Below are positions 1,970-5,645 of a DNA stretch of 64,000 nt, piece by piece. Below the pieces are notes generated by a model. That model did no database searches and was not told the origin of the DNA. It worked only from the letters and a program-made list of their open reading frames with translations. This DNA comes from Deltaproteobacteria bacterium. GTDB lineage: Bacteria; Desulfobacterota; Deferrisomatia; Deferrisomatales; BM512. Made by a program: the position numbers and the translations under genes. How positions within the stretch are numbered: position 1 is the stretch's first letter; each line of letters opens with the position of its first letter. The DNA is taken from assembly GCA_002869015.1 (NCBI GenBank), contig PKTT01000023.1, forward strand, positions 1 to 64,000. The letters run 5' to 3'.

Positions 1970-2077
1970 GAGCCTAATGAGCAAGAGATATTGTACATAA
2001 ATGTCGACCCTACCTTTCAAAGTTGTCTGATTTTTTGATCTTTGGGGTCCGCCTCTTGAGAAGCGAGGTTGTTTCAT

Positions 2078-3034
2078 ATGGCCGATTTAAAATTGATGTG
2101 CGGCACCCTTAAAGATGTCGAGGAGGTGATGAGCCGCAAAGATGGCTCTGTGGAATCCTGCATAGTTATGGGGCGCTCAAAAGTTTTAACCAGCGTTGGC
2201 GAACTTACGCCGGTCTATGATGTAGAGGAGGAATCCAGGCGCATCCTCCAGCCGATCTCGATTTACCCGGACGGCAGTGTCAAGGCCGTGGCCCTGCAAG
2301 GGGTAGCTAAAGTGTCTACGCCGATTGGTGAATTTGAGGCCGAGATGGTGAGCTTCCACAAAAACGGAGGTGTCAGAGGCATCTTCCCCTTGAACGGCAA
2401 GCTCTCAGGCTTCTGGGCAGAGGAGGAGGAGGCGAAGCTGGCGAAATCAGTTGTGATAGATACTCCTATAGGCGCCATCAGAGCTAAAGTGATCTCACTA
2501 TATTTCCACCCTTCGGGCGCGCTTCGCTCAGTTACCCTCTGGCCCGGAGAGGTCATAGAGATTGACACTCCCCTGGGGCCTTTTGGGGCGAGGGTAGGGG
2601 TATCCTTCTACGAAAACGGGGCGCTCCGATCCTTAGAACCGGCGAAACCTACCGGGATAGCTACCCCGATAGGGGGATTCACAGCATTTGACCCTGACCC
2701 TGACGGCATCAGCGGAGACAGTAATTCGCTGGTTTTTGATGAAGAGGGTGGTATACGGGAACTCTCAACTCTTACTGAGCAGGTTTCGGTGTTTGAAGGT
2801 GATAAGAAATATACCTTCACTCCAGCCCTTAAAGAGAGCCTCTGTCAGGAAAGCCAGATGGTGGTGCTGCCACTCAAAGTCACCTTCACCAAGGGCGGCG
2901 TTGTGTTAGACGGCAGAGAGTTTCGCCTCGACGAGGCAAAAGTCAAGACAGAGGCGTTTTTGGGAGATATCAAACCAATGGCGCTGAACCTCGGCCGCCA
3001 GGAGTCGCCCGCTCTGCCTCTCTGGAAGTGTTGA
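2078..3034 (+). CDS. Hypothetical protein built of T-P-I-G repeats
   Basis: The protein (318 residues from this start) has four to five degenerate repeats of about 35-50 residues. Each opens with TPIG or TPLG (TPIGEFEAEMVSF, TPIGAIRAKVISL, TPLGPFGARVGVS, TPIGGF) and carries a strand ending NGxVRG or GALRS. The pattern (strand, turn, Gly, strand) suggests a beta-solenoid or MORN-like repeat, but I do not recognise the family. There is no signal peptide. An in-frame TTG lies at 2069, but the ATG at 2078 has AGCGAGG nine bases upstream and is preferred. Its stop overlaps the start region of the macro-domain gene, so the two are likely translated together. The last residue is cysteine. Confidence 0.75.
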   Translation: MADLKLMCGTLKDVEEVMSRKDGSVESCIVMGRSKVLTSVGELTPVYDVEEESRRILQPISIYPDGSVKAVALQGVAKVSTPIGEFEAEMVSFHKNGGVRGIFPLNGKLSGFWAEEEEAKLAKSVVIDTPIGAIRAKVISLYFHPSGALRSVTLWPGEVIEIDTPLGPFGARVGVSFYENGALRSLEPAKPTGIATPIGGFTAFDPDPDGISGDSNSLVFDEEGGIRELSTLTEQVSVFEGDKKYTFTPALKESLCQESQMVVLPLKVTFTKGGVVLDGREFRLDEAKVKTEAFLGDIKPMALNLGRQESPALPLWKC

Positions 3035-3036
3035 AT

Positions 3037-3468
3037 ATGATTGAGGCTGAGGGTGACCTTTTTGCTGAGATCGGAAGCGCTATTATCGCATTCACCACCC
3101 ATGGGACGGTTAACAAACGGGGGGCGACGCCGATGCTTCACGGCTCGGCGCGGGAGGCTTTAAGGCGCTTCCCAGAGTTGGCGGAAGAGCTGGGAGGGAT
3201 GATAAGTAAATACGGAAACCACGTTCACCCACTCTCCCATGGCCTCGTCAGCTTTCCGGTAGAGCACGGCTGGATGGAGGTCCCCGATCCTCGCCTTATT
3301 GAGCGTTCGGCGGGCGAACTTAAAGCTTTGGCTGACCAAAATGGGTGGAAAAAAATCATCGTGCCGCGACCTGGCTGCGGTGGTGGAGGGCTTAAGTGGG
3401 AGGAGGTAAAACCTCTCCTTGAACCATATTTCGATGAGCGCTTTACCTTGGTGGTAAAGGCTCGATAA
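3037..3468 (+). CDS. Macro-domain-like protein (putative ADP-ribose-binding)
   Basis: The product has 143 residues from the ATG. It shows an Appr-1-p processing (macro) fold: the N-terminal EGDLF element, a central HPLSHGLVSFPVE strand region, IERSAGELKALADQNGW helix, and PRPGCGGGGLKWEEV, a glycine-rich phosphate-binding loop typical of macro domains. Members bind or hydrolyse ADP-ribose derivatives; the substrate here cannot be told from the sequence. GTG 3028 and TTG 3031 are in-frame alternatives; the ATG at 3037 starts just past the upstream stop (3032-3034), which indicates translational coupling with the repeat protein. A hairpin at 3491-3519 follows the gene but favours the opposite strand. 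Confidence 0.75.
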   Translation: MIEAEGDLFAEIGSAIIAFTTHGTVNKRGATPMLHGSAREALRRFPELAEELGGMISKYGNHVHPLSHGLVSFPVEHGWMEVPDPRLIERSAGELKALADQNGWKKIIVPRPGCGGGGLKWEEVKPLLEPYFDERFTLVVKAR

Positions 3469-3545: not shown

Positions 3546-3797
3546 TCAGGAAGTGGGTTTGCTGAAAGTTCTAATGGAGGAGATGCCCATCCAATCGTAG
3601 TAGGTGTTAACTGATTCGCCTTCGCGACTCTCCGTAACACGTACAAAATCGCTGCCCAAAAATATTACTGCGCTCTCGAAAATGGGCCCCTCGTTGATCT
3701 GTAGCTTAACGCCGCTTCTCTGCTTTCTTGAGAGTGTCCCGTGCTGCGGGGAGGTCGCATATTCAAGCGCCTTCTCCCATGTTTCCTTGATAGCCAT
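3546..3797 (-). CDS. Small hypothetical protein
   Basis: An 83-residue acidic/basic mixed protein of unknown family. The longer frame begins at 3833, but the internal ATG at 3797 (MAIKETWEKALEYA) has GAGAGGAG just upstream and is the better start. The C-terminal half (VKLQINEGPIFESAVIFLG, then TYYDWMGISSI) looks like alternating beta strands, as in a small beta-barrel. It lies in the same orientation as the 105-residue gene upstream at 3854-4171 and is followed by a terminator, so the two may form a short operon. No function can be assigned. Confidence 0.6.
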   Translation of the reverse strand: MAIKETWEKALEYATSPQHGTLSRKQRSGVKLQINEGPIFESAVIFLGSDFVRVTESREGESVNTYYDWMGISSIRTFSKPTS

Positions 3798-3853
3798 TGA
3801 CTTCTCCTCTCTAATTTCAAGTTGCCGCGGCATTTAGCCACGTATTGAGGTCC

Positions 3854-4171
3854 CTAAGAGACCATAGGTTCGTAAAAACGCAGCTGGAGCTCTTCGCCCT
3901 CACCGGTTGAGAGCTCATAAGTGCCTGCGCGTAAAAGCTCAATCCCCTCGCTTTTCACCGCCTCCGACAACTTTGAAAGGAGCGGCGAGCGCTTTGCCTC
4001 ATCGAATTCGCGGTTAAAGTAAACGCGGACCGGGGCATCGGGGTCGGATACCTGAAAGAGGAAGTGGTTATGGGTGAAAAGCAGTAGATCCTCGTGGGCG
4101 TGGGTGAGGTGATAACCGGCAGACCATACGCTGTTCTCGACCTTCTCAACTATCTCATCACGGCTCTTCAT
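3854..4171 (-). CDS. Hypothetical protein, 105 aa
   Basis: Unrecognised soluble protein. It begins MKSRDEIVEKVENSVWSAG, contains a histidine-rich stretch (HLTHAHEDLLLFTHNH) and a second half of predicted alternating strands and helices (RVYFNREFDEAKRSPLLSKL). There is no signal peptide, membrane segment or cysteine. GAGAGGAAG lies upstream of the ATG. It precedes the small gene at 3546-3797 by 56 bases on the same strand. The clustered histidines could bind metal, but that is a guess. Confidence 0.6.
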   Translation of the reverse strand: MKSRDEIVEKVENSVWSAGYHLTHAHEDLLLFTHNHFLFQVSDPDAPVRVYFNREFDEAKRSPLLSKLSEAVKSEGIELLRAGTYELSTGEGEELQLRFYEPMVS

Positions 4172-4555: not shown

Positions 4556-5293
4556 TTATCTCCTCTTATTTTTTGCCTCATGGTTATCGTCCAAAAAAAA
4601 ATTCAATTCATAGAGGGCGGTCGATTGCAGCAGGTAATTCGTACCGTGGTGCTCTGAGAGTCGACGAATTTCTCCCAAAAAAGCCGCCGGCCCTTTATCT
4701 CTGGCCTCTGCTACAGAGCTTTTTTCCTCTGTGTTGACGCTGCCCTTGAGAAAGCCCCACATGTGGTCAAGGGCATTTTCGATGCCGCCATGAGAGGGAG
4801 GGAGACGAAGTAATTTAACCAGGTCTGAGGCTAGCCCTCCATCTAATCCCTCGCTCATCCCGGCAACCCTGGGGCCCGTCTCCCGGTAAAAGCGCTCATC
4901 CCTTGCGAGCACTGAAAATTTATGAGTCCCCCAGAGGTCACGACTATCCAACGGGATGGGGATCGGCCCATCAACCTTAAAAAGATATTTATCTTTGAGG
5001 AGCTCATATTGCTTTTGCGGAGGGTCAATATAGGTATCCGGCCACTTTAGGTCGCTGCTATCCTTTGGTAGGGGTGATAAATGGTTATATCCCCTTAGCA
5101 CCATCTCGGAGGCAACCATGTCGTGACGCATTGCGAGTGCATTCAGGCAGCCTTCCCACCTTAAGGTCTCCGGGTGGCGGGAGTAGCCCTTTTTCCCTAG
5201 GGTTAGGATGTTGAATATCCCGTGGATCTCCCTGTGCTCGCCTAGCAAGCTTCCCCTGTTTAGAAAGGGTGGGGGAATGTCCCAAACTCTCAA
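4556..5293 (-). CDS. Pyrimidine-dimer DNA glycosylase (endonuclease V type) fused to DUF1722
   Basis: Two domains are joined in 245 residues. Residues 1-75 match the pyrimidine-dimer glycosylase/T4 endonuclease V family: MRVWDIPP, LLGEHREIHGIF with Glu22 aligning to the catalytic Glu23 of T4 endonuclease V, KGYSRHPETLRW and RGYNHLSPL. Residues about 121-235 match DUF1722 (the YbgA domain): HKFSVLARDERFYRETG, LPPSHGGIENALDHMWGFL and YLLQSTALYEL. The enzyme family cuts DNA at UV dimers with its N-terminal amine, so the start matters. The TTG at 5293 is preceded by GGGAG nine bases upstream and leaves the family's N-terminus intact. The domain calls are strong; joint function is inferred. Confidence 0.82.
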   Translation of the reverse strand: MRVWDIPPPFLNRGSLLGEHREIHGIFNILTLGKKGYSRHPETLRWEGCLNALAMRHDMVASEMVLRGYNHLSPLPKDSSDLKWPDTYIDPPQKQYELLKDKYLFKVDGPIPIPLDSRDLWGTHKFSVLARDERFYRETGPRVAGMSEGLDGGLASDLVKLLRLPPSHGGIENALDHMWGFLKGSVNTEEKSSVAEARDKGPAAFLGEIRRLSEHHGTNYLLQSTALYELNFFLDDNHEAKNKRR

Positions 5294-5645
5294 ATCCCAA
5301 GCTCCCTTTTGAAAAATTCTCGTTAAGCCCTTTAAATAGGGCGGTACGCCATATTTTAAGCCTTAACTCCGGCTACTCTTCCAGCCGCAGGCTTACCCTT
5401 GCTATGCGGGACGGTTAGGACGTACACCAAACCTATGGCTTTATAATACAGTTAATCATGTAATATATGTTATGCCAGCTTAAGGGTGGCTGGGATTTTT
5501 TGGGCTTTGCTTTTGTATTCAATGGGGTAAAGTGGCCCTTGTTTATTTATTCAAACGCGGATTGACAGTATTTTAACTAAAATTTTGCCGCCGTAAACTG
5601 GCGAAGGACCTTGCTTCGATAGATTGCTATTTGCGGGGAACGTAA
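5294..5645. other. Intergenic region, 352 bases, between divergent genes
   Basis: AT-rich in its second half. It contains a weak hairpin (CCAGC/GCTGG, 5475-5493) followed by a T-run, and a TTGACA at about 5568 without a well-spaced -10 box. It should hold promoters for the glycosylase fusion (left) and the histidine kinase (right). No gene is evident. Confidence 0.4.

Follow-up and report, generated by a model that had tools for sequence, protein, structure and literature searches.

A conserved bacterial fusion of a T4 endonuclease V-type glycosylase domain with DUF1722, a candidate member of the photodamage toolkit

We identified a bacterial gene that joins a pyrimidine-dimer glycosylase domain of the T4 endonuclease V type and a divergent, all-helical DUF1722 domain in a single polypeptide. 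The gene occupies positions 4556..5293 (minus strand, stop included) of the window, the whole 64,000-nucleotide stretch of deltaproteobacterial DNA analysed here, and encodes 245 aa from a TTG start. The Pyr_excise-DUF1722 combination is a new domain architecture built from known families; the fused gene is old, widespread and highly conserved. On balance we lean towards reading the protein as a dimer glycosylase/AP lyase of the T4 kind that carries a helical DUF1722 docking module and belongs to a photodamage toolkit. In the literature searched we found no description of the fusion, nor any paper pairing DUF1722 with the term "pyrimidine dimer DNA glycosylase".

An earlier note on this DNA had given the coordinates of the gene correctly; the open reading frame, however, is on the minus strand, and the plus strand across 4556-5293 contains many stops. 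The note's central observation, a glycosylase and DUF1722 in one frame, is borne out by the Pfam scan, in which both domains score above their cut-offs. PF03013 (Pyr_excise) matches residues 1–73 (E 9.1e-24, 84.1 bits, cut-off 23) and PF08349 (DUF1722) matches residues 125–198 (E 1.8e-6, 28.6 bits, cut-off 22.5). Both domains are present in all 39 relatives of the alignment that were scanned. PF04463 (TudS) is absent from the Pfam scan of the protein, the N-terminal half of which is Pyr_excise and not a RudS-type TudS domain. A scan against NCBIfam gave a weak match to the MSMEG_6728 family, far below the cut-off, and nothing else. The domain limits needed revision: judged by the Pfam match and the structural model, the T4-type domain comprises residues 1–112 (4958..5293, minus strand) rather than 1–75, and the DUF1722 domain, judged by Pfam, profile comparison and the model, residues 115–234 (4592..4951, minus strand) as against the 121–235 proposed before.

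The fusion of a congener (G001/L004) is 68–69% identical to that of the window. In either half, differences between the two genes pile up at the third positions of codons (dN 0.25, dS 2.9, the latter near saturation and informative for direction only). More distant full-length relatives share 50% (G019) and 44% (G040) identity. The window fusion is a genuine gene under purifying selection.

The AlphaFold2 model of the fusion protein (pLDDT 94.5, pTM 0.89) has a sole clear structural match, T4 endonuclease V (PDB-entry 1enk), with a Z-score of 9.2 for 108 residues; residues 1–112 of the model superimpose on residues 2–136 of the T4 enzyme, and the next unrelated entry follows at Z 4.2. Because the match extends over residues 1–112, the T4-type domain is longer than its Pfam match. 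Foldseek alone ranked T4 endonuclease V second with an E-value of 2.3, and the assignment therefore rests on the structural aligner together with the Pfam family. Sequence searches of the PDB with the fusion, either as a single sequence or as a profile, yielded no match, and the global sequence likeness to the T4 enzyme is weak (hhalign probability 61.7%). An alignment with T4 DenV (E 7.7e-5) pairs Arg21 and Glu22 (codons at 5228..5233, minus strand) with Arg22 and Glu23 in the gene numbering of the T4 protein.

In the mature T4 enzyme the imine is formed by the N-terminal α-amine, and proton transfer falls to Glu22 in mature numbering (PMC3285167). The spacing from Met1 to Glu22 in the fusion equals the amine-to-glutamate spacing of the T4 enzyme. 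Members of the fusion family start with the motif Met-Arg-[Ile/Val]-Trp-Asp; Met1, Arg2, Trp4, Asp5 and Glu22 are conserved in 100% of 79 sequences and Arg21 in 99%. Glu22 had been called a catalytic-type residue before, and its alignment and invariance agree with that, as does the alignment of the preceding Arg21. A free N-terminal amine and a glutamate preceded by arginine, the signature of the T4 type, are thus predicted for the fusion. By homology, the window protein would be a light-independent pyrimidine-dimer glycosylase/AP lyase.

The N-terminus deserves particular attention in this chemistry. The TTG start and the Arg2 codon are located at 5288..5293 (minus strand), and Met-Arg is found in 79/79 aligned relatives. 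A Shine-Dalgarno-like GGGAG (5302..5306, minus strand) lies 8 nt upstream of the TTG, and no other start is possible between the preceding stop and this TTG. In the congener the same TTG has an in-frame stop two codons ahead of it. The TTG start chosen in the earlier note was therefore right, and its insistence on the exact N-terminus is matched by the invariance of Met1 and Arg2. No alternative start codon precedes the stop in 60 of 72 relatives with a closed upstream frame, and as read from these sequences the start position in fusion genes is forced. The 78 relatives counted start with ATG (73), GTG (3) or TTG (2), so that the position is special and TTG itself is not. Methionine aminopeptidase leaves a methionine that precedes arginine uncleaved. 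Given the arginine at position 2, Met1 is probably kept and would be the carrier of the catalytic amine.

To survey the distribution, 84,980 species genomes were scanned; 426 encode a relative, and the best 80 loci were kept. With one or two exceptions, the match at these best 80 loci spans almost the entire query. The fusion occurs at 80 or more loci across about a dozen phyla, including Thermodesulfobacteriota, Zeta- and Gammaproteobacteria, Nitrospirota, Acidobacteriota, Spirochaetota, Myxococcota, Bipolaricaulota, Fermentibacterota, Delongbacteria, Aminicenantes, SAR324 and others. Its absence from relatives, which the earlier note had named as an outcome that would count against its proposal, is not what we find. 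Judged by record titles, many carriers come from sediment, groundwater and other dark habitats. Within the window's phylum (217 genomes), Pyr_excise is encoded in 32 genomes, nine of them with full-length fusions, and a RudS-like DUF1722 in 98.

In the tree, a branch supported at 100/100 separates the DUF1722 domains of the fusions from the others, a pattern that fits the fusion having arisen once and then spread widely. The glycosylase tree is less clear-cut: in it, short stand-alone forms are nested close to two of the fusions. The glycosylase half of the fusion (LLGEHRE subfamily) lies apart there from the T4 branch and two further Pyr_excise branches. Stand-alone glycosylases of the LLGEHRE subfamily lacking DUF1722 were seen at L103:1501-1830 (109 aa) and L105:1501-1857 (118 aa). 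A viral or plasmid origin was considered and rejected: viral contigs, phages and plasmids contained zero full-length relatives, and phage records match either the glycosylase half or the DUF1722 half alone. In the gamma proteobacterium HdN1 two fusion-bearing units of 785 bp (L074:5975-6759 and L075:5975-6759) are 100% identical and about 122 kb apart; one adjoins a reverse transcriptase of the group II intron type, the other is near an IS3-type transposase. An origin of these copies as integron cassettes was also dismissed, since the flanking repeats are direct repeats of about 395 bp and not attC-like.

The C-terminal half is related to the DUF1722 domain of RudS and YbgA (profile-profile probability 97.9%, E 4.4e-13, 101 columns). 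Both groups share a core consisting of His124-Lys125, Ala130, Gly140, Asn173, His177 and Gly180. The DUF1722 domains of the fusion clade lack the first helix of RudS, have a shorter loop and carry an invariant C-terminal STAL motif. Invariant DUF1722 residues in the full-length relatives include His124, Lys125, Asn173, His177, Trp179 and the STAL motif at 224–227. Positions 167/168, the equivalents of Ser243 and Arg244 of RudS_KT, for which contact with the tRNA anticodon has been proposed, are variable in the fusions and also among RudS sequences. A model of the domain by itself is all-helical (pLDDT 96.3). Against the PDB this model gave a best Foldseek E-value of 5.7 (probability 0.01) and nothing at Z ≥2 with VIA-align, which is not proof of a new fold. 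A Dali result for DUF1722 by the RudS authors is in line with this absence of a PDB match (PMC11417400).

4-Thiouridine (s4U) in tRNA is a UVA-sensitive base. Jamontas et al. (2024) showed that in E. coli the TudS-DUF1722 protein RudS strips tRNA of 4-thiouridine and reduces the growth delay caused by UVA (PMC11417400). They modelled DUF1722 of RudS on the anticodon arm of tRNA, a placement supported by mutations of S243 and R244, and reported that RudS genes often lie within light-responsive operons (PMC11417400). Stand-alone YbgA had zero effect on s4U in the same assays (PMC11417400). In their census, 74.4% of DUF1722 domains were TudS fusions and 21.4% stood alone (PMC11417400), which leaves about 4% undescribed, where the Pyr_excise fusion would fall. 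We found no experimental work on DUF1722 in the literature searched beyond this study. The Shewanella genes listed for the RpoE2 regulon, a regulon of photoreactive and oxidative stress, include ybgA and phrB (PMC4336711). In E. coli, ybgA and phr lie next to each other with a 4-nt overlap, confirming the tie to the photolyase gene from which the earlier note had argued. As the tested role of DUF1722 concerns tRNA s4U and YbgA alone was ineffective, the ybgA-phr operon accords equally well with a general light response extending to tRNA and with DNA repair. A tie between DUF1722 and light damage is supported; the form that the earlier note gave it, a likely part in recognising or processing UV-damaged DNA, is not, the sole tested role being that on tRNA s4U.

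Neighbours of the fusion were surveyed at 79 loci with flanks of up to 6 kb. An oxidoreductase of the TIGR01777 type is directly upstream at nine loci (gaps of 8–14 nt, one of 57 nt). TudS follows directly downstream in the Zetaproteobacteria L032, L043 and L081 (gaps of 4–9 nt) and also in L035; two of these loci, L032 and L035, have ThiI about 3 kb downstream as well. RudS is found 9 nt downstream in L013; in this Mariprofundus sp. (L013:2987-5054) the fusion, RudS and a separate TudS are located inside 2.8 kb. Nitrococcus (L034) contains a RudS-photolyase-TspO-fusion cluster. TspO also occurs in L051, and in L037 it begins 3 nt downstream of the fusion. By a rough estimate, well under one such adjacency would be expected by chance in 79 loci. 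The adjacencies collapse to about five lineages, a minority, and most loci have no photodamage gene within reach. At ten further fusion loci, inspected by eye with 1.5-kb flanks, no photodamage neighbour was recognised, and none adjoins the fusion in the window. The link to photodamage genes is therefore real but partial. The neighbours (TudS, RudS, ThiI, photolyase, TspO) are consistent with a photodamage toolkit and give no preference to DNA.

Near the window fusion, two small ORFs of 95 and 105 aa (3546-3833 and 3854-4171, minus strand) are without a Pfam match. The congener keeps their order, with small ORFs of 105 aa and 83–95 aa, and also a macro-like gene near its fusion. The window counterpart of the latter (3028-3468, plus strand) encodes a 146-aa macro-domain-like protein with a sub-threshold Pfam Macro match and a partial match to the DarG antitoxin (residues 72–137, E 1.4e-8, far below the cut-off). 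A 321-aa protein with repeated motifs of the type TPIG.F.A and no Pfam match is encoded at 2069-3034 (plus strand).

Canonical ThiI, the s4U synthase, defined as a full-length match with an E-value below 1e-50, is encoded in 13/39 fusion genomes: 13/30 outside the window's phylum and 0/9 within it. It was not found in the remaining 26, and the weaker matches in the window's phylum are MnmA-like or partial ThiI-like. The complete genome of HdN1, which has two fusion copies, contains no ThiI match at E 1e-10. A strictly 4-thiouridine-dependent substrate is therefore unlikely, although a non-canonical synthase may be present. The window genome encodes a divergent RudS (TudS-DUF1722; L121:3250-4200, G000:C65), yet no canonical ThiI was found there, and 93 of the 98 RudS-positive genomes of the phylum sample are likewise without a full-length ThiI match. 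A PP-loop protein of the window genome (L120:1039-1749, G000:C25), cut by the contig end, has a partial ThiI match (E 6.5e-13) and could be a non-canonical tRNA thiolation enzyme. An enrichment of RudS in fusion genomes was not observed (5/9 versus 93/208 in the rest of the phylum, Fisher p 0.73). Class-I photolyase is absent from 38/39 fusion genomes. We rejected the idea that the fusion replaces photolyase, because class-I photolyase is rare throughout the window's phylum (7/217 genomes) and its absence is uninformative there.

Based on these results we infer the following mechanism, which includes the reaction, the substrate, the retention of Met1 and the docking role. In a cyclobutane dimer of DNA, the N-terminal amine of Met1 would attack the 5' pyrimidine at C1', and Glu22 would act as acid/base. 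The base would be released, and the strand would be cut by β-elimination through the imine. The C-terminal DUF1722 could serve as an all-helical module for docking to nucleic acid, either raising the affinity of the enzyme or positioning it on its substrate, by analogy with DUF1722 of the RudS desulfidase on tRNA. The gene would then be part of a bacterial photodamage toolkit that also comprises photolyase, TspO, TudS/RudS and the TIGR01777 oxidoreductase.

The nature of the substrate is the main point on which other readings differ. DNA is favoured over tRNA, because canonical ThiI is scarce in fusion genomes. DUF1722 might instead deliver the glycosylase/lyase domain to photodamaged RNA, most likely tRNA, where the enzyme would remove or cut at a photoproduct such as an s4U8-C13 crosslink or a pyrimidine dimer as a quality control beside the RudS/TudS desulfidases. 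The steering of a catalytic domain to tRNA s4U by DUF1722 of RudS (PMC11417400) and the adjacency of TudS, RudS and ThiI described above speak for this reading, which we nevertheless regard as unlikely in view of the ThiI counts, of a RudS frequency no higher in fusion genomes than in the phylum and of the DNA substrates known for T4-type enzymes. A shade less likely still is a dimer-type glycosylase/lyase retargeted by DUF1722 to photodamaged tRNA and working beside the RudS/TudS thiouridine erasers; it would be the first enzyme to remove, or cleave at, a UV/UVA photoproduct of RNA.

Alternatively, the same amine/glutamate chemistry may act on another DNA lesion, such as an abasic site or a different damaged base, with UV being secondary. 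The separation of the LLGEHRE subfamily from the T4 and the two other Pyr_excise branches would suit such a shift, as would the dark habitats given in many record titles and the majority of loci without light-linked neighbours; photolyase, TspO and RudS as neighbours would then be unexpected, and we give this option a small chance, if a slightly better one than the tRNA reading. An old chance fusion of two halves without joint function, in which DUF1722 is a passenger or an element for dimerisation or stability, is a further option; stand-alone glycosylases of 109–118 aa of the same subfamily speak for it, as they show that this half can exist without DUF1722. It is very improbable, given the low dN and the retention of DUF1722, with its invariant residues, in all full-length relatives examined from about a dozen phyla. 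The preferred reading thus remains a T4-type glycosylase/lyase that acts on dimers in DNA with the help of DUF1722.

The fusion hints at a link between the repair of light-damaged DNA and the protection of tRNA. It offers a direct handle on the role of DUF1722, for which one tested role, the removal of s4U from tRNA, and the unexplained ybgA-phr operon were available before. With a single soluble protein of 245 aa, irradiated DNA and irradiated tRNA can be compared. If DNA is the substrate, DUF1722 would be a general nucleic-acid docking module and YbgA would likely aid photolyase; if tRNA is the substrate, excision of RNA photoproducts exists.

The known system closest to the N-terminal half is T4 endonuclease V (DenV, PDB-entries 2END and 1ENK), which resembles residues 1–112 of the fusion in fold, in the Arg-Glu pair and in the spacing between amine and glutamate. 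It differs in that a processed threonine carries the amine, in place of Met1 in the fusion, in an identity of only about 14–15% and in the lack of a C-terminal domain. Stand-alone bacterial Pyr_excise proteins (such as L103, L105 and L125-L138) belong to the same Pfam family and have the Arg-Glu pair and mostly a Met-Arg-x-Trp start, but they lack DUF1722, and just the short LLGEHRE forms group with the glycosylase half of the fusion. Like the fusion, RudS has its catalytic domain in front of a C-terminal DUF1722; it is found in light-linked clusters and is sometimes the next neighbour of the fusion. The catalytic domain of RudS, a [4Fe-4S] desulfidase, is unrelated to that of the fusion, and the DUF1722 of the fusion forms its own clade (100/100) without the first helix and with a different C-terminal motif. 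In E. coli YbgA, DUF1722 is tied to a UV-lesion repair enzyme as in the fusion, but by an operon: YbgA is a separate polypeptide, its partner is photolyase, and alone it left tRNA s4U unchanged (PMC11417400).
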